Shown here in pieces: positions 22,436-50,888 of a stretch of 64,000 bases of DNA (positions are counted from its first letter, which is position 1; every line of letters starts with the position of its first letter). The stretch is from an uncultured Microbacterium sp. (GTDB lineage Bacteria; Actinomycetota; Actinomycetes; Actinomycetales; Microbacteriaceae), in NCBI RefSeq assembly GCF_947489255.1, contig NZ_CANLCY010000003.1, positions 601,199-665,198 of the forward strand, written 5' to 3'. The notes beneath the pieces were generated by a model, which had not been told where the DNA came from, made no database searches, and was given only the letters and a program-made list of their open reading frames with translations. The position numbers and the translations under genes are program-made.

Positions 22436-23536
22436 ATGTCCCGCAACATCGGCTACGCCACCCCCGACAAGAACACCCCCCTCGCGCCCTTCGCCTTCGA
22501 CCGCCGCGAGGTGGGCCCTGAAGACGTGCGCATCGACATCGCCTACTGCGGCGTCTGCCACTCCGACGTGCACCAGGCCCGCGACGAGTTCGGCGGCGCC
22601 CTGGCGACGCTGTGGCCCTGCCTCCCGGGCCACGAGATCGCCGGCACCGTGGCCGAGGTGGGTTCTGAGGTGACCCGCTACGCCGTCGGTGACCGCGTGG
22701 GCGTCGGCTGCCTCGTGTACTGGGGCGACGAGTCGCAGCGCGGCGTGAGCGAGGAGCAGTACCAGAACCCGCCCGCGATCTTCACCTACAACGGTCAGGA
22801 TCCCGACACCGGAGACGTCACCCTCGGGGGATACTCCGACGAGATCGTCGTCAACGAGCACTTCGTGCTGCGCATCCCCGACGCCATCCCGCTCGAGCAG
22901 GCGGCTCCGCTGCTGTGTGCGGGGGTCACGACGTGGTCGCCGCTGGCGCACTGGAACATCGGTCCCGGCAGCGTCGTCGCCGTCGCCGGTCTCGGCGGAC
23001 TCGGCCACCTCGCCGTGCAGTTGGCGAAGGCCCGCGGCGCTGACCGCGTGATCGCGCTGACCACCAGTCCCGACAAGGCCGATGCCGTCCGGGCCCTCGG
23101 GGCCGACGAGGTGCTCGACATGACCGACGAGGATGCCGTAGAGGCGCACGCTTCGAGCATCGATTTCGTGCTGTCCACCATCCCGACGCCGTTCGACATG
23201 AAGCCCTACCTCTCGCTCATCCGCCACGACGGTGCGCTGGTGACGGTCGGCATGCTCGAGCCGATCCACGAGGAGGGCATCGACTTCGGCTTCGTGTCGA
23301 TGAACCGCATCACGATCGCCGGTTCGCTCATCGGCAGCATCGCCGAGACGCAGGAGGTGCTCGACTTCGCCGCCGAGCACGGAATCGCCGCCGAGGTGAA
23401 GGTCATCTCCGTGCAGCAGGTCAACGAGGCCTTCGACGAGATGGTCGCCAACGACATCCGCTTCCGCTTCGTGATCGACAACAGCACCCTGGATGCCGAC
23501 CGCGACGGCGCCGCGGACCTGCCCGCCTCGCAGTGA
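22436..23536 (+). CDS. Zinc-type alcohol dehydrogenase (YahK/CAD-like) lacking structural Zn site
   Basis: A 366-residue MDR-family NADP-dependent aldehyde/alcohol reductase. Catalytic-zinc elements are intact: YCGVCHSDVH near residue 40, PGHEIAGTV, and LLCAGVTTWSPL. The nucleotide-binding motif AGLGGLGHLAVQ is near residue 185. Relatives have four cysteines binding a structural zinc after VGVG; here the region reads GCLVYWGDESQRGVSEEQYQ and none of the four is present. Such variants exist in the wider family, but the fold of that lobe must be stabilised differently. GAGGAAG precedes the ATG. It is followed by a strong hairpin. Confidence 0.85.
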   Translation: MSRNIGYATPDKNTPLAPFAFDRREVGPEDVRIDIAYCGVCHSDVHQARDEFGGALATLWPCLPGHEIAGTVAEVGSEVTRYAVGDRVGVGCLVYWGDESQRGVSEEQYQNPPAIFTYNGQDPDTGDVTLGGYSDEIVVNEHFVLRIPDAIPLEQAAPLLCAGVTTWSPLAHWNIGPGSVVAVAGLGGLGHLAVQLAKARGADRVIALTTSPDKADAVRALGADEVLDMTDEDAVEAHASSIDFVLSTIPTPFDMKPYLSLIRHDGALVTVGMLEPIHEEGIDFGFVSMNRITIAGSLIGSIAETQEVLDFAAEHGIAAEVKVISVQQVNEAFDEMVANDIRFRFVIDNSTLDADRDGAADLPASQ

Positions 23537-24151: not shown

Positions 24152-26962
24152 TCACCGCGTCGCCCGCTCCAACAACTCCAGCACGTGCACGTACGACTCC
24201 CCCGTCGCCTTCGTCATCCCGAGCTCGCACGTGCGGTTGCAGGATGCGAAGGCATCGGCGCCGAGCCCGGCGACCTCGGCCGCCTCGGGCGCGGTCGCGG
24301 CCGCGGTCAGCTCGGGGTGCAGCATCCCGCGGTCACCCGCGTAGGCGCAGCAGCCCCACGCGTCGGGGACGCGCACCTCGGTCGCAACGGCCTCCCCCAC
24401 CGCGCGAAGCGCCGGGTCGATGCCCAGCTGCTTCGACGAACAGGTCGGGTGAAGGGCCAGCAGCTCCGCCACCGTCGTCGGGCTCAGGGCCGGAAGCAGA
24501 ATGGATGCCGCGAAGGCCACGGCATCCACGACCTCCACTCCCTCCTCCCGCAGCGTCGCCGCGAACCCCTCGGTGCAGCTCGACGCGTCGCAGACGACCG
24601 GCAACGCACCATCACGCGAAGCCGAGCGCACGGCCGCGCGCACGCGGGCGGTCATCGTGGCGTGGCCCTTCGCGTACCCCTTCGACGACCACGGGGTGCC
24701 GCAGCACAGCGCGTCGATGCCGTCGGGCACCACCGCCGCCACCCCGGCGCGCTCGAGCAGTCGCACGAACGCCACGGTCGCGCCGATTCCGTCGGCGGGG
24801 CCGAACATGCTGCCCACGCACGCGGGCAGGAACACCGCCACCGGCTCGACGCCCGGCGCGCCGACCCGCGATCCGAGCGAGCGACGAGACGCCCCACCCG
24901 ACGGCAGCTCCGCCGAGTACTGCGGCACCGTGTCGGTGCCGAGAACCGCGCGGGCGGCATCCGTCACCGTCCGCACGACGGGCATCGGAACGGCCGAGGC
25001 CGCGGAGAGAGCCGCCGACCCCGCCCGCGTCACCGCACCCCACCCGGTCGCCGCGGCCGACCAGCCGGCGGCCAGCACCGGGTGGGCGTCCTCCCGACGG
25101 AAGCGCTTCATCAGCGTCCCGGTGTTGATGAGCACGGGGCACGCCGTCTGGCACATGCCATCGACGGCGCAGGTCTGCACGCCGTCGTAGTCGTAGTCCT
25201 TCTCCAGCTCGGCGACGAGGGCTCCGTCGCCGCGCTCGCGCGCCGCCGTCGACGCCCGGCGCACGACGATGCGCTGCCGCGGGGTGAGGGTGAGCGACCT
25301 GCTCGGGCACACCGGCTCGCAGTATCCGCACTCCACGCACCGGTCGGCCTCGGGCTCGATCGACACGGGCGCCTTCAGGTGGCGCATGTGCGCCCCGGGG
25401 TCGTCGTCGATGATCACCCCGGGATTCAGGATGCCGCTCGGGTCGAGCAGACGCTTGAGCCGCACCATCACGTCGTACAGCTCGTCGCCGTACTGCCGTC
25501 GCACGTAGGGAGCCATCGCGCGTCCGGTGCCGTGCTCGGCCTTGAGGTTGCCGCCCGCGTCGAGCACGAGGTCGACCATCGCGTCGGTGAAGCCCTCGAA
25601 CCGGCCCAGGGCCCTCGCCCCCTCGAACCGGTCGGTGAGCATGAAGTGGATGTTGCCGTCCTTGGCGTGGCCGAAGATCACGCTGTCGGCGTAGCCGAAC
25701 CGTGCGAACAGCTCCTGCAACCCCTCGCACGTGTCGGCGAGGCGCTCCACCGGAACGACGACGTCTTCGAGCAGCGCCGTCGTGCCGCTCGGCCGGACAC
25801 CGGCGACCGAGGCGTAGAGGCCCTTGCGGAAGGTCCACGCGGCGGCACGCTGGGCGGGGTCGCTCGAGAACGCGGCGGTCTCGCGGAGGTTCTGTTCCGC
25901 GAGCACCCGCGCGCCCGCCGCGGCGAGCTCGCCCAGCGTCGGAGCGTCGTCCGCGTGATACTCCACGAGCAGCGCCGCCTGCGTCGTGGCCTCGAAGCCG
26001 TGGATGGCGGCGGGAGTGCCGGCCAGACGCTGGCCGACGCGCAAGGACGTGGCATCCATCAACTCCAGCGTCGCGGCGCCCGTGGACACCAGAGCCGGCA
26101 GGGAGCGCGTCGCTGCGTCGAGCGTCGGGAACACCGCGAGCGTCGTCGCGATCGCGGGGCGGATGGGCACCGTGCGGAACGTCGCCTCGGCGACGAAGGC
26201 GAGCGTCCCCTCCGATCCCACGACGAGGTGGGCGAGCAGGGCTGCGGGGGTGTCGAAGTCGAGGAACGCGTTGAGGGCGTACCCCATCGTGTTCTTCATC
26301 GCGAACTGCCGCTCGATGAGCGCGACGCTCGCGGGATCGCCGACAACGCGGGAGCGCAGGCGCATCAGCTCGTCGACGAGCGCGGGCTCGCGCTGGGCGA
26401 GCAGCCGATCGGCGTCGGGGTCCGCGGTGTCGACGACGGTCCCGGATGCCAGCACCAGCACGAGCGACTCGAGCGTGCGGTACGAGTTCTCCGCCGTGCC
26501 GCACGCCATGCCGCTGGAATTGTTCGCGACGACCCCGCCGATCGTGCACGCGGCCTCGCTCGCGGGATCGGGGCCGAGGCGGTGGCCGTGCCGGGCGAGT
26601 CGCGCGTTGACCTGCCGCACGGTCGCCCCCGGCTGCGAACGCACGCGCCGGCCGCCGTCGAGCACGTCGATGCGTCCGAAGCCCTGGCGCACATCGACGA
26701 GCAGCCCCGCCCCCGACGACTGCCCCGACAGGCTCGTCCCACCCGAGCGGAAGGTGACGGGGGTTCCGGATGCCGTGGCCCCCCGCAAGACGCGGGCGAC
26801 CTCGACGGCGTCGGCGGCGATCACCACGGCCTCCGGAGTGAGGAGATAGTGCGAGGCGTCGTTGGCGTAGGCGACGCGGTCGATCGCGCGCGTGCGGATG
26901 CGCGAGACGTCGGAGACGGCGGCGGCGATCTCGGGAGCGATCTCGGTCGCGGTGAGGGTCAT
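24152..26962 (-). CDS. FAD-linked D-lactate/glycolate-type dehydrogenase with Fe-S domain
   Basis: A 936-residue fusion of GlcD-like and GlcF-like parts. Residues ~35-270 are the FAD-binding PCMH domain (PVTFRSGGTSLSGQSSGAG, CTIGGVVANNSSGM). Residues ~290-540 are the FAD-oxidase C-terminal domain (VIFGHAKDGNIHF, KAEHGTGRAMAP). Two 4Fe-4S motifs follow, CVECGYCEPVCP near 541 and CAVDGMCQTACP near 600, then two cysteine-rich CCG-type regions (CCGTPW near 752 and CCAYAG near 872). Such proteins oxidise D-lactate or related 2-hydroxyacids and pass electrons to the quinone pool at the membrane. It lies just downstream of the PfkB kinase on the same strand. Confidence 0.88.
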   Translation of the reverse strand: MTLTATEIAPEIAAAVSDVSRIRTRAIDRVAYANDASHYLLTPEAVVIAADAVEVARVLRGATASGTPVTFRSGGTSLSGQSSGAGLLVDVRQGFGRIDVLDGGRRVRSQPGATVRQVNARLARHGHRLGPDPASEAACTIGGVVANNSSGMACGTAENSYRTLESLVLVLASGTVVDTADPDADRLLAQREPALVDELMRLRSRVVGDPASVALIERQFAMKNTMGYALNAFLDFDTPAALLAHLVVGSEGTLAFVAEATFRTVPIRPAIATTLAVFPTLDAATRSLPALVSTGAATLELMDATSLRVGQRLAGTPAAIHGFEATTQAALLVEYHADDAPTLGELAAAGARVLAEQNLRETAAFSSDPAQRAAAWTFRKGLYASVAGVRPSGTTALLEDVVVPVERLADTCEGLQELFARFGYADSVIFGHAKDGNIHFMLTDRFEGARALGRFEGFTDAMVDLVLDAGGNLKAEHGTGRAMAPYVRRQYGDELYDVMVRLKRLLDPSGILNPGVIIDDDPGAHMRHLKAPVSIEPEADRCVECGYCEPVCPSRSLTLTPRQRIVVRRASTAARERGDGALVAELEKDYDYDGVQTCAVDGMCQTACPVLINTGTLMKRFRREDAHPVLAAGWSAAATGWGAVTRAGSAALSAASAVPMPVVRTVTDAARAVLGTDTVPQYSAELPSGGASRRSLGSRVGAPGVEPVAVFLPACVGSMFGPADGIGATVAFVRLLERAGVAAVVPDGIDALCCGTPWSSKGYAKGHATMTARVRAAVRSASRDGALPVVCDASSCTEGFAATLREEGVEVVDAVAFAASILLPALSPTTVAELLALHPTCSSKQLGIDPALRAVGEAVATEVRVPDAWGCCAYAGDRGMLHPELTAAATAPEAAEVAGLGADAFASCNRTCELGMTKATGESYVHVLELLERATR

Positions 26963-46888: not shown

Positions 46889-47791
46889 ATGAGCCACGAT
46901 CGCGACCAGTTCACTTTCGACAACCCGGTCACGCGCTACGCCCGCGTCGAACCGCCCCTCCAGCACCAGCCCGAGCCGGGCGTGCAGGCCGACATGACCC
47001 CCGTGCCCGACCTCGGCGAGAAGACGTACCGCGGTCTCGGACGCCTCACGGGCCGCAAGGCCCTCATCACCGGCGGCGACTCGGGGATCGGCGGGGCCGT
47101 CGCGATCGCCTTCGCGCGCGAGGGCGCCGACGTCGCGATCGTGCACCTCCCCGACGAGCAGCGCGACGCCGACCACATCCTCGACCAGATCCGGGATGCC
47201 GGCCGCACCGGCGTCTCGATCGCGACCGACATCACCGACCCGGGCGCGTGCCGCGACCTCGTCGCCCACGCGGCCGAGGCCCTCGGCGGCCTGGACATCG
47301 TCGTGAACAACGCCGGGAAGCAGGTCATGGTCGAAAAGGTCGACGACCTGTCCGACGAGCAGTTCGAGCAGACGTTCCGCACCAACGTCTTCGCGCCGTT
47401 CTGGATCACCAAAGCCGCGCTGGCCCACCTTCCGGAGGGCGGCACGATCATCAACACCGCCTCCCTCGAGGCCTACGTGCCGGCGCCCGACCGTCTCGAC
47501 TACGCCGCGACGAAGGCGGCCATCAACAACCTGTCGAAGGGCCTCGCCCAGCAGCTCGCCTCCCGTGGCATCCGCGTCAACGTCGTGGCGCCCGGACCCA
47601 CCTGGTCGGCTCTGCAGGTGAGCCAGGGGGTCTCCGACGACCAGATGGAGCACTTCGACGACGAGAGCACCTATCAGCGCGCGGGGCAGCCCGCCGAGAT
47701 CGCGCCGGCGTTCGTCTTCCTGGCCTCCGCCGAATCCAGCTACGTCTCGGGCGAGACGCTCAACGTCAACGGCGGCATGGTCACCCCCTGA
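46889..47791 (+). CDS. Short-chain dehydrogenase, GsiB/YghA-like stress oxidoreductase
   Basis: A 300-residue SDR-family NAD(P)-dependent oxidoreductase. The N-terminal ~45 residues are an extended arm seen in the general-stress SDR group (YdaD/YhdF/YghA). The Rossmann motif is ALITGGDSGIGGAVAIA, then DIVVNNAGKQ, the catalytic serine in IINTASLEAY, the YAATK active site, and VNVVAPGPTWS. A strong hairpin follows the stop. Confidence 0.86.
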   Translation: MSHDRDQFTFDNPVTRYARVEPPLQHQPEPGVQADMTPVPDLGEKTYRGLGRLTGRKALITGGDSGIGGAVAIAFAREGADVAIVHLPDEQRDADHILDQIRDAGRTGVSIATDITDPGACRDLVAHAAEALGGLDIVVNNAGKQVMVEKVDDLSDEQFEQTFRTNVFAPFWITKAALAHLPEGGTIINTASLEAYVPAPDRLDYAATKAAINNLSKGLAQQLASRGIRVNVVAPGPTWSALQVSQGVSDDQMEHFDDESTYQRAGQPAEIAPAFVFLASAESSYVSGETLNVNGGMVTP

Positions 47792-47943: not shown

Positions 47944-49338
47944 ATGTCCGAAGACACCGCCTCCGTTCCCGACGAGGCGCCCCTCACCCTATACCTGCTG
48001 CACGCGCTCGGCGCGAGCGCCCGGTCGTTCGACCGCCTGGCGGATCGGCTGGCCGGACGCGTCCGTGTCGTGGGCATCGACCTCCCCGGGTTCGGGTCCG
48101 AGGCCGACGCCACCGAGACCGACCTGACCCGCACCGTCGCGCATGTCGAGCGCGTCCTCGCCGCGCACGACGGCGGACCGTGGCTGCTCGGCGGTCACAG
48201 CATGGGCGGCAAGGTCACCGCGCTCGTGGCATCCCGTGTCCTCCGTGGCGAGGCAGCCCTGTTCGGTCTGGCAGGGGTCGTGCTCATGGCGCCCTCGCCG
48301 CCGAGACCCGAGCCGATGGACGAAGAGCGCCGCGAGCGCATGCTGTCGTGGGTGGCCGATGGTCCGCTCTCCGACGAGGATGCCGAGACCTTCGTCGCCC
48401 AGAACGTGGCGGAGCCGCTCGACGCCGAGGCGCATGCGGTGGCGCTCGACGGCCTGCGCCGCACGTCGCCCGCGGTCTGGCGCGCCTGGCTCGAGACGGG
48501 CAGCACGGTCGACGCCACGGCCGAGGTGGGCCTGCTCGATCTGCCCGCGCTCGTGCTGGCCGGCGAAGACGATGCCGACCTCGGCGCGGCGGCTCAGCCG
48601 GGCCTGCTGGCCGCGGTGTACCCGCGCGCCCGCTTCGTCGCCCTGCCCGACACGGGGCACCTCATTCCGCTCGAGCGCGACGCGGAGGCCGCGGAGGCGA
48701 TCGCCCGCTTCGTCGACGAGGAGGTGCGGGTGGGACCCGTCGTCCCCGACGAGTGGGCGCGCCTCATCGCGGGCGATCGCGTCGACGACCGGGTGCGCGG
48801 CATCCTGGCCCGTCGTGCGCTGCCCGACGACCGCGGCTATGCGCCCGCGGCGCTCGACCTGGCCCAGCTGACCCTGCTGCGCGAGATCGCGGACCTGGTG
48901 GTTCCGCAGGAGGGACGCGCGATCGACATCGCCGCCCGCGTCGACGCGCAGTTGGCCCGCGGCGAGGGCGACGGATGGCGAAACGCCGATCTTCCGCCCG
49001 ATCCCGAGGCCTATCGCGCCGGGCTCGACACCCTCGCCGGCGTCTGGGCGACCGATCCCGCTGATCGCGACCGCATCCTGCGCGCGGCGATCGAGGGTGA
49101 GAGCACCGCCGAGGGGGCGTTCGACGCCGAGCGGATGAAGGCCTGGCTGGAAGACGTCCGCAACGACCTCGTTCGCCAGTGGCTCGCGCACCCCGCGAGC
49201 ATGGCGCGCGTCGGCTACGACGGGTTCGCCACCGGCGGATCGCCCATGCGGGGCTACGTGGAACTGCGGCTGGGGCGCCGAGAAGACTGGGAGCCGTCCG
49301 GAGTCGGCGGCACAATCGCGACGGGAGACGCCGCATGA
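47944..49338 (+). CDS. Alpha/beta hydrolase fused to gluconate-dehydrogenase subunit-3-like domain
   Basis: A 464-residue two-domain protein. Residues ~10-260 are an alpha/beta hydrolase with LLHALGASARSFDRLA, GIDLPGFG, nucleophile elbow GGHSMGGKV near residue 85, LVLAGEDD and the catalytic His in DTGHLIPLE. Residues ~270-464 resemble the small (gamma) subunit of gluconate 2-dehydrogenase-type GMC enzymes (LTLLREIADLVVPQEGRAIDIAARVD, then a helical end). That subunit normally has a Tat signal; none is present here, so the protein should be cytoplasmic. Its stop overlaps the GMC start by ATGA. The fusion suggests an ester or lactone hydrolysis step coupled to oxidation. Confidence 0.75.
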   Translation: MSEDTASVPDEAPLTLYLLHALGASARSFDRLADRLAGRVRVVGIDLPGFGSEADATETDLTRTVAHVERVLAAHDGGPWLLGGHSMGGKVTALVASRVLRGEAALFGLAGVVLMAPSPPRPEPMDEERRERMLSWVADGPLSDEDAETFVAQNVAEPLDAEAHAVALDGLRRTSPAVWRAWLETGSTVDATAEVGLLDLPALVLAGEDDADLGAAAQPGLLAAVYPRARFVALPDTGHLIPLERDAEAAEAIARFVDEEVRVGPVVPDEWARLIAGDRVDDRVRGILARRALPDDRGYAPAALDLAQLTLLREIADLVVPQEGRAIDIAARVDAQLARGEGDGWRNADLPPDPEAYRAGLDTLAGVWATDPADRDRILRAAIEGESTAEGAFDAERMKAWLEDVRNDLVRQWLAHPASMARVGYDGFATGGSPMRGYVELRLGRREDWEPSGVGGTIATGDAA

Positions 49339-50888
49339 ACCTCGAAGCCATGCGCACCTTCGCCGACGACGAGACGGTCGACGTCGTCGTCGTCGGAACC
49401 GGAGCCGGAGGGGCGCCGCTGACGGCCGAACTCGCCCGCAAGGGTCTCAGCGTCGTCGCCCTCGAGGCCGGGCGCCACTTCGCCCTCGACGACCTGACCC
49501 CCGACGAGACCGAGGCGGTCGAGATCAACTGGATGTCGGAGCGCCTGAGCGGCGGCGACGACCCCACGGCGTTCGGGCCGAACAACAGCGGACGCGGCGT
49601 CGGCGGTTCGATGCTGCACTGGGGCGCCTTCACGCCGCGCCCCGATCGCCGCGACCTCGCCATCCGCACGGAGTCGGGCGTGGGCCGCGACTGGCCGGTC
49701 GATCCCGACGAACTGCTGTCGTACGTCGAGCGCGTCGAGGGCGACATCGGCGTCTCGGGCCCGACCCCCTACCCGTGGGATCCCACCCGCACCTACGCCT
49801 ACGCCCCGGCGAAGCGCAACGCTCCGGCGAACCTCGTGGCCAAGGGCTGCGACGCCCTCGGCGTGCGCTGGGCCGACGCCCCGGCCGCGGTGCTTACGCG
49901 TGCCCGCCTGCAGGATCACCACGGCGAGCGCGGCGCGTGCGTCAACTGCGGCGAATGCCACCAGGGGTGCCGAGTGGATGCCAAGGCCTCCACCGCCAAC
50001 ACCTATCTGCCGGCGGCGGTCGCGGCCGGTGCCGAGATCCGCAGCGAGTCGATGGTGCACGGCATCGAGCTCGACGATCGCGGCCACGTCGCCGCCGTCG
50101 TCTACCGCAAGGACGGCGTGGACCGCCGACAGCGCTGCCGCGCTCTCGTGCTCGCCGGCGGGGGCGTCGAGACGCCCCGCCTGCTCCTGCACACGGGTCT
50201 GGCGAACGACAGCGGCCAGGTGGGTCGCAACTTCCTCGCTCACGGGGCGACGCAGGTATGGGGTCGCTTCGACGAGCCGGTGCGCGGGCACCGCGGCTAC
50301 CCCTCGTCGCTGATCTCCGAAGACATGATGCGCCCCGCCGACGCGGACTTCGCCGGCGGATACCTCCTCCAGAGCCTCGGCGTCATGCCCCTCACCTACT
50401 CGACGACGCTCGTGCGCGGCGGAGGCCTCTGGGGCCCCGAGCTCATGCAGCGCCTCGATCAGGCGCGGTTCATGGCGGGAATCGGCATCAACGCCGACTG
50501 CCTCCCCTCCGACGACAACCGGCTCGTGCTGAGCGACGAGACCGACGAGTTCGGCATCGCCCGGGCGCGCGTCACCTTCACCGCCGGCGAGAACGAGAAG
50601 GCGATCGACAAGCACGCGACGGCGTTCATGCTGCGGGTGATGGAGGCGGCCGGTGCGCGGGAGACGATCGTCTTGGCCCGCACGGCCCACACGATCGGAA
50701 CCTGCCGCATGTCGACCGACCCCTCGGACGGCGTGGTGGACGCCGACGGCCGCTCCCACGAGATCCCCAACCTGTGGATCTGCGACAACTCCGTCTTCCC
50801 CTCGGCGATCGCCGCGAACCCGGCGCTGACGATCATGGCGCTCTCGCTCCGCACCGCCGACCGCTTCCTGGCCTCCGCCGCCGCCTGA
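49335..50888 (+). CDS. GMC oxidoreductase with cysteine-rich Fe-S-like motif
   Basis: A 517-residue FAD enzyme of the glucose-methanol-choline family. The FAD motif DVVVVGTGAGGAPLTAELARKG is near residue 15, NSGRGVGGSMLHWGAFTPR near 80, and the C-terminal active site near TAHTIGTCRMSTDPSDGVVD and NPALTIMALSLRTADRFL. Residues ~202-212 read CVNCGECHQGC, a cysteine cluster matching the Fe-S-binding insertion of gluconate/glucose dehydrogenase large subunits. The partner small-subunit-like domain is encoded just upstream with an ATGA overlap. The substrate is probably a sugar or sugar acid. Confidence 0.85.
   Translation: MNLEAMRTFADDETVDVVVVGTGAGGAPLTAELARKGLSVVALEAGRHFALDDLTPDETEAVEINWMSERLSGGDDPTAFGPNNSGRGVGGSMLHWGAFTPRPDRRDLAIRTESGVGRDWPVDPDELLSYVERVEGDIGVSGPTPYPWDPTRTYAYAPAKRNAPANLVAKGCDALGVRWADAPAAVLTRARLQDHHGERGACVNCGECHQGCRVDAKASTANTYLPAAVAAGAEIRSESMVHGIELDDRGHVAAVVYRKDGVDRRQRCRALVLAGGGVETPRLLLHTGLANDSGQVGRNFLAHGATQVWGRFDEPVRGHRGYPSSLISEDMMRPADADFAGGYLLQSLGVMPLTYSTTLVRGGGLWGPELMQRLDQARFMAGIGINADCLPSDDNRLVLSDETDEFGIARARVTFTAGENEKAIDKHATAFMLRVMEAAGARETIVLARTAHTIGTCRMSTDPSDGVVDADGRSHEIPNLWICDNSVFPSAIAANPALTIMALSLRTADRFLASAAA

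Follow-up and report, generated by a model that had tools for sequence, protein, structure and literature searches.

We analyzed a 64,000-nucleotide stretch of DNA from an uncultured Microbacterium sp. (contig NZ_CANLCY010000003.1, hereafter the window; the close named relatives of its genome are Microbacterium), in which two overlapping genes on the + strand form a cassette. The first gene (47944..49338) encodes, in one frame from an ATG, a protein of 464 amino acids plus a stop codon that joins an alpha/beta hydrolase to a small subunit of the Gluconate_2-dh3 type. Translation could also begin earlier, at an in-frame GTG (47926); the whole open frame holds 483 codons, 19 of them upstream of the ATG. 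The second gene (49335..50888) encodes a GMC-family, flavin adenine dinucleotide (FAD)-dependent dehydrogenase of 517 amino acids plus a stop codon (GMC_oxred_C, 82.3 bits; GMC_oxred_N, 65.7 bits). As an earlier reading of this DNA, made from its sequence alone (the original prediction), had claimed, the two genes share an ATGA stop/start overlap at 49335..49338 (+).

An alpha/beta hydrolase fused to a small subunit

The fusion that the original prediction had proposed proved to be real. Both halves match Pfam domains within a single open reading frame, and an intact fusion is present at 98 of the 132 small-subunit loci that we analyzed. Because the arrangement recurs across so many genomes, we ruled out a chance fusion, a frameshift, or an assembly error. 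Searches with the C-terminal half recovered it from 64 of 295 genus genomes and 70 of 299 family genomes, the window's genome being included in both counts. The 132 loci comprise 62 from the genus set, 69 from the family set, and one from outside the family but within the order (G056); left out were G078 (truncated at a contig end) and G144 (without a profile match) from the genus set and G374 from the family set. A full-length hydrolase lies in front of the small subunit in 98 loci, the hydrolase is degenerate in 11, and 23 have none. Of the intact fusions, 49 belong to the window's genus and 49 to a further 17 genera of the family (genera distinguished by code). Outside the family one fusion was found, L216 (G752), and no hydrolase was seen in the small-subunit frame of the five other order-level regions examined or of the nine regions examined among the 24 other phylum-level hits. 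We found no fusion of a hydrolase with this small subunit among the titles and beginnings of abstracts listed by our literature searches.

The hydrolase half (residues 15–261; 47986..48726, +) matches Abhydrolase_6 with 68.9 bits over residues 17–251. An AlphaFold2 model of the whole fusion, built from 28 sequences, has a mean predicted local distance difference test score (pLDDT) of 87.3 and a predicted template modeling score of 0.85, with pLDDT mostly >90 in the hydrolase half and <50 at residues 1–10 and 429–464. The catalytic triad was claimed to be intact, and it is invariant in all 98 intact fusions: the nucleophile Ser86 within GHSMGGK (48199..48201, +), the acid Asp210 within GEDD (48571..48573, +), and the base His239 within DTGHLIP (48658..48660, +). 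Equally invariant are Lys90, Ser118, and Glu123-Pro124-Met125, the last two elements belonging to an SPPxPEPM motif of the hydrolase half.

Judged by title, the best 50 Foldseek matches of the fusion are alpha/beta-hydrolase folds or designed cages with one inside, and include esterases, the aryl esterase 1va4, and the enol-lactonase 2xua. By sequence and fold, the closest solved structures are the esterase 4uhc, the feruloyl esterase 7dq9, and the phospholipase 6i8w. The fold does not discriminate between esters and lactones. The top two NCBIfam matches are the enol-lactonase fusions PcaDC (88.5 bits; cut-off 390) and PcaCD (64.9 bits; cut-off 430). We rejected an identity as the 3-oxoadipate enol-lactonase PcaD, for which TIGR02427 gives 46.7 bits against a cut-off of 255.85, and as any other named lactonase, since the hydrolase scores too low for each of the NCBIfam families listed.

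For the C-terminal half, a match to the Gluconate_2-dh3 profile (PF13618) had been set beforehand as the test on which the prediction would stand or fall. Residues 308–421 (48865..49206, +) score 26.2 bits, narrowly above the cut-off of 23.4, and the half scanned alone scores 29.0 bits; a six-frame scan of the window's genome at E ≤ 0.001 detected no PF13618 domain, not even the one in the fusion. Two unfused sibling small subunits score 71.7 and 66.5 bits, and the sibling group aligns with the window's C-terminal half at 22–27% identity, with motifs in common. It is because these high-scoring siblings align with it that we assign the C-terminal half to Gluconate_2-dh3. A profile of the small-subunit half found no relative among solved structures (a single chance match at E 1.2), and none of the best 50 Foldseek matches is, by title, a solved small subunit that would correspond to it. 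The small subunit adjoins the GMC gene in the window, and a GMC match is present at all 132 loci, in four of them partial.

The GMC partner and the location of the cassette

The junction seen in the window is general, being ATGA or GTGA in 127 of the 132 loci and CTGA in the remaining five. The best match of the GMC protein in the PDB is the catalytic subunit of the Burkholderia FAD glucose dehydrogenase (E 1.9e-41), followed by fructose dehydrogenase. The loop CVNCGECHQGC, which had been put forward as an iron-sulfur cluster site, is present at residues 202–212 (49938..49970, +). Its Cys202, Cys208, and Cys212 align with Cys212, Cys218, and Cys222 of the Burkholderia enzyme, which are described there as ligands of a [3Fe-4S] cluster, its Cys213 instead bonding the small subunit (PMC6719666). 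Since three, not four, of the loop cysteines correspond to known ligands, a [3Fe-4S] cluster is expected, and by this alignment it is a fair prediction that the GMC protein carries one. Where the other three cysteines are kept, Cys205 is variable, being Arg in the unfused group and, in a small number of fusions, Ser or Ala.

His452 (50688..50690, +) and Asn495 (50817..50819, +) are taken to be active-site residues, as is usual for GMC enzymes. The former is His in 94 of 96 intact rows (two gaps), 11/11 degenerate rows, and 23/23 unfused rows; the latter is Asn in 71 of 96 intact rows (25 gaps), 10 of 11 degenerate rows (one gap), and 23/23 unfused rows. In a number of fusion loci (L111-L113, L116-L119, L121, L122, L169, and relatives) all cluster cysteines are replaced, for example by HQGDR or HQGER, and the rest of the loop is kept; in these cysteine-free proteins the electron route must differ. 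Separately, the GMC gene of L037 and L039 is split across two frames in the assemblies and is either broken or misassembled, and in L034 and L049, from a metagenome-assembled genome, it lacks ~40 residues including the cluster loop.

In the Burkholderia complex, the small subunit is said to hitchhike on twin-arginine translocation (Tat) and is described chiefly as an export escort (PMC6719666). The window's fusion contains no Tat signal, and the 19 codons before its ATG are too few for one; export through an earlier upstream start was therefore ruled out, as the open frame leaves no room. For the analyses of export, neighborhood, and window genes, gene starts were called with our own codon-usage script. 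Among 33 unfused siblings, of which one was too short to assess, 0/32 have a hydrophobic stretch at the N-terminus (the highest 15-residue Kyte-Doolittle mean is 1.03), and two, L160 and L226, hold an RR string. The pattern RRx[FLIVM] occurs in 2 of 80 fusion-lineage N-termini, both inside the hydrolase fold, and within 45 codons before the hydrolase match in 4 of 98 open frames, start codons not being considered. The claimed absence of an export signal thus holds for the fusion but is not special to it. As the unfused siblings also lack a signal, its absence was not caused by the fusion, and the N-terminal sequences suggest that a cytoplasmic location goes with the wider group.

Module loss and gene neighborhood

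To place these variants, we used a FastTree phylogeny of 140 GMC proteins (95 from intact, 11 from degenerate, and 34 from unfused loci; seven short rows were omitted). A branch with a support of 100 separates all 106 fusion-lineage rows from the 34 unfused rows. Degenerate hydrolases require five changes on this tree, at least four of them forced by well-supported branches. No cluster cysteines remain in 34 of the 95 intact rows and 6 of the 11 degenerate ones, which argues against an obligatory coupling; these losses form two clades, one of 37 and one of 3, as read from the drawn tree, and the state of L118 was assigned by hand from its loop, which the automatic pattern had misread. The cassette therefore persists without the hydrolase, and without the cluster cysteines. 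In all four identity bins the hydrolase half diverges fastest, then the small subunit, and the GMC protein slowest; in the 90–96% bin (21 rows) the respective identities are 75.9%, 83.0%, and 92.8%.

In three of the degenerate loci, L097-L099, the nucleophile is gone and an intact-looking alpha/beta hydrolase gene lies ~150–180 bp downstream of the GMC gene on the same strand. By eye, no such gene was seen downstream in L100-L102, L104, L105, L120, L148, or L234, and the intact loci L103, L108, L144, and L146 also have hydrolase-like genes nearby. Replacement in trans accounts for one loss at most, and we rejected it as a general explanation. In the degenerate loci L100-L102, L104, L105, and L120, a short segment similar to the FGLAGVV strand region of the lost hydrolase remains before the small-subunit half; it was not seen in L148. 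Another arrangement occurs in a distant member of the phylum (L226:4175-6709, - strand), where the small subunit and the GMC protein form one 845-residue protein (Gluconate_2-dh3, 53.6 bits). L227 apparently carries the same arrangement, cut by a contig end. Among these enzymes, this makes a second type of fusion.

Upstream of the fusion in the window, at a distance of 152 bp, lies a gene for a 300-residue NAD(P)-dependent oxidoreductase of the short-chain dehydrogenase/reductase (SDR) family (46889..47791, +; adh_short_C2, 191 bits), which scores 394.8 bits against NCBIfam PRK06128, below the cut-off of 481. The original prediction had overlooked this gene. Neighbors were scored in the 79 intact and 10 degenerate loci (of 98 and 11) that had wide flanks, an SDR of the same type being defined by a phmmer E ≤ 1e-60. 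Such an SDR is the most frequent conserved neighbor that we looked for, and was present in the flank of 51/79 intact and 9/10 degenerate loci. In the intact loci, it is on the same strand and ≤350 bp upstream in 41, touches the fusion in 28, and is on the opposite strand in five. A gene of glycoside hydrolase family 15 (GH15) is found in the flank of 14/79 intact loci, in several arrangements, as well as 5/23 unfused loci and 3/11 unfused loci outside the family. The two GH15 proteins scanned have a trehalase-like N-domain (TREH_N), and the 22 genomes checked contain only 1–5 PF00723 matches each.

The 23 unfused loci have different company: a small predicted membrane protein in 22, a thiamine-diphosphate enzyme in 21, an enolase-superfamily gene in 17, and an SDR in two. 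Of the enolase-superfamily proteins, one was scanned, and its nearest matches are sugar-acid dehydratases, with a score below the cut-off. The cluster of membrane protein, Gluconate_2-dh3, GMC, thiamine-diphosphate enzyme, and enolase-superfamily genes recurs across actinobacteria (L124-L127, L150-L168, L217-L226), sometimes with GH15 and a pyridine-nucleotide-disulfide-oxidoreductase-like gene. The neighborhood of the relatives thus suggests a setting of sugar oxidation. Among the 48 genes called in the window, the motif CXXCH is confined to the iron-sulfur loop of the GMC protein and to the protein at 22436-23533, an alcohol dehydrogenase as judged by eye, and in this search, limited to the window, no cytochrome c gene was found beside the cassette. 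Elsewhere in the window (24155-26962, - strand), a 936-residue protein starts, by eye, like an FAD-linked dehydrogenase of the glycolate/lactate-oxidase kind.

Possible functions and known systems

The original prediction had a cytoplasmic complex oxidize a sugar to a lactone and open it, or free a sugar from an ester before oxidizing it, and the evidence supports this interpretation in part. Most likely, the cassette encodes a cytoplasmic dehydrogenase of sugars or polyols to which a lactonase or esterase is tethered. The GMC protein would oxidize a sugar or polyol using FAD, and the electrons would leave by way of a [3Fe-4S] cluster at its surface. The Gluconate_2-dh3 half would dock on the GMC protein, as in FAD glucose dehydrogenase, with no role in export, and would serve as a tether carrying an active serine hydrolase. 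The hydrolase would then open the lactone made by the dehydrogenase, pulling the oxidation forward and removing a reactive product, and in many genomes the upstream SDR might perform a related alcohol/carbonyl step. Homology is our basis for proposing the docking, the cluster, and the soluble location; the lactone as the substrate of the hydrolase and the identity of the sugar are guesses. We favor a lactonase acting on the product of the dehydrogenase, within such a cytoplasmic tethered cassette, with a probability of about 0.45; the main reasons are the resemblance of the partner to sugar dehydrogenases and the retention of the triad in every full-length half.

Several findings weigh against this reading. 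Membership in PF13618 is marginal: among six further fusion-lineage proteins that we scanned, L075 (31.5 bits) and L101 (26.9 bits) pass the cut-off, L068 (22.1 bits), L008 (18.5 bits), and L133 (17.0 bits) are below it, and L110 gave no match. A structure model of the GMC protein was poor (mean pLDDT 47.2) and was set aside. No neighbor in the window names a substrate, the two GH15 genes of the window's own genome lie elsewhere, and the flanks of the intact loci contain no SDR in 28/79 and no GH15 gene in 65/79. PF08450, of the gluconolactonase type, is found in 6 of 9 Microbacterium genomes with the fusion, the window's included, versus 15 of 26 without it. As PF08450 (E ≤ 0.001) shows no anti-correlation with the fusion, we rejected the idea that the fused hydrolase compensates for a missing gluconolactonase.

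Further points on the same side come from the hydrolase apart from its partner. In the 11 loci where it is degenerate, the small subunit and the GMC protein remain 43–71% and 59–81% identical to those of the window. Conversely, standalone relatives of the hydrolase, 47–53% identical, occur in 5 of 198 genomes of the order (E ≤ 1e-15), with no small-subunit or GMC gene within ~6 kb on either side; these five genomes have no close GMC protein, one giving no match and four giving weak matches (best 3.7e-13). The degenerate halves and the standalone relatives argue that the two activities can live apart, and against an obligatory coupling. The SPPxPEPM motif is common to the fused and standalone hydrolases, and the standalone L215 has a glycine in place of the nucleophile serine. 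Given relatives that exist without a GMC partner, the hydrolase half seems to have been recruited from an independent hydrolase.

The alternative that survives best, which we consider unlikely, reverses the order of the reactions, so that the hydrolase acts first, unmasking a hydroxyl in a substrate such as an acylated sugar or polyol, and the resulting alcohol is then oxidized by the GMC protein. It gains from the esterase or lipase-like character of the nearest solved structures, 4uhc, 7dq9, and 6i8w, but the GH15 and sugar-acid-dehydratase-like neighbors in relatives point to free sugars and acids and not to acylated ones. We regard as improbable, and place next, the possibility that the hydrolase is unrelated to the GMC reaction and that the fusion, once export had been given up, helps the small subunit to fold, stay soluble, or be co-expressed. 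The four or more separate degenerations, the fast evolution of the hydrolase half, the FGLAGVV-like remnant in the degenerate loci looked at, and the unfused siblings that manage without a hydrolase would all suit a folding aid; the conservation of the triad, Ser118, and Glu123-Pro124-Met125 in 98/98 full-length halves would be needless for one. Glucoside 3-dehydrogenase also belongs to this subunit type. That the GMC protein makes 3-keto sugars as such an enzyme does, with the SDR inverting or recycling the hydroxyl and the hydrolase performing another step, is very improbable: it fits an FAD enzyme with cytochrome c as the electron acceptor, as glucoside 3-dehydrogenase is described (PMC9915066), a GH15 gene near some loci, and an oxidizing GMC protein adjacent to a reducing SDR, which would suit an epimerizing pair, but the best solved match is a C1-oxidizing glucose dehydrogenase and a 3-keto sugar gives a lactonase nothing to act on.

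Returning to the tethered lactonase, we propose a wider history only tentatively, and consider it doubtful as a whole. A subunit of the Tat-hitchhiker type may have become a cytoplasmic docking module in Microbacteriaceae that hands a lactonase to an iron-sulfur GMC enzyme, with the SDR as a third member. The modules would have been traded or lost by lineage, the hydrolase at least four times and the cluster cysteines twice, and once with a separate hydrolase gene downstream. The recurrence of the joined protein suggests that oxidation and cutting may occur side by side on one complex. If so, a cytoplasmic small subunit that tethers an enzyme would suggest that the basic job of this subunit is to dock on and stabilize the flavoprotein, and the cassette would be a natural soluble FAD and iron-sulfur dehydrogenase that brings its own lactonase and might be useful in sugar sensors and biocatalysis. 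The natural variants without the hydrolase or without the cluster cysteines separate the parts for experiment.

The Burkholderia cepacia FAD glucose dehydrogenase consists of a catalytic alpha subunit, a small gamma subunit, and a cytochrome c beta subunit (6a2u, 8hdd; PMC6719666). The window's cassette resembles it in having a GMC catalytic subunit, three cysteines of the same spacing, and a small subunit encoded alongside, and differs in that the fusion is without a Tat signal, the small subunit is fused to a hydrolase, and no cytochrome c gene is found among the called window genes. The unfused actinobacterial pairs of GMC and Gluconate_2-dh3 genes, which form the sister group, share the gene order, the stop/start overlap (23/23), the three ligand cysteines (23/23), and the absence of a detected export signal; unlike the fusion loci, they have no hydrolase, have different neighbors, and mostly lack the SDR. 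With esterases and enol-lactonases (4uhc, 7dq9, 1va4, 2xua, and PcaD) the hydrolase half has in common the fold, the GHSxGG elbow, the Asp, and the His, whereas its SPPxPEPM motif is its own. Finally, a dehydrogenase and a lactonase are also held together in the fusion of glucose-6-phosphate dehydrogenase with 6-phosphogluconolactonase. That system uses nicotinamide adenine dinucleotide phosphate and an unrelated lactonase in one chain; in the cassette described here, the tether would run through the small subunit.

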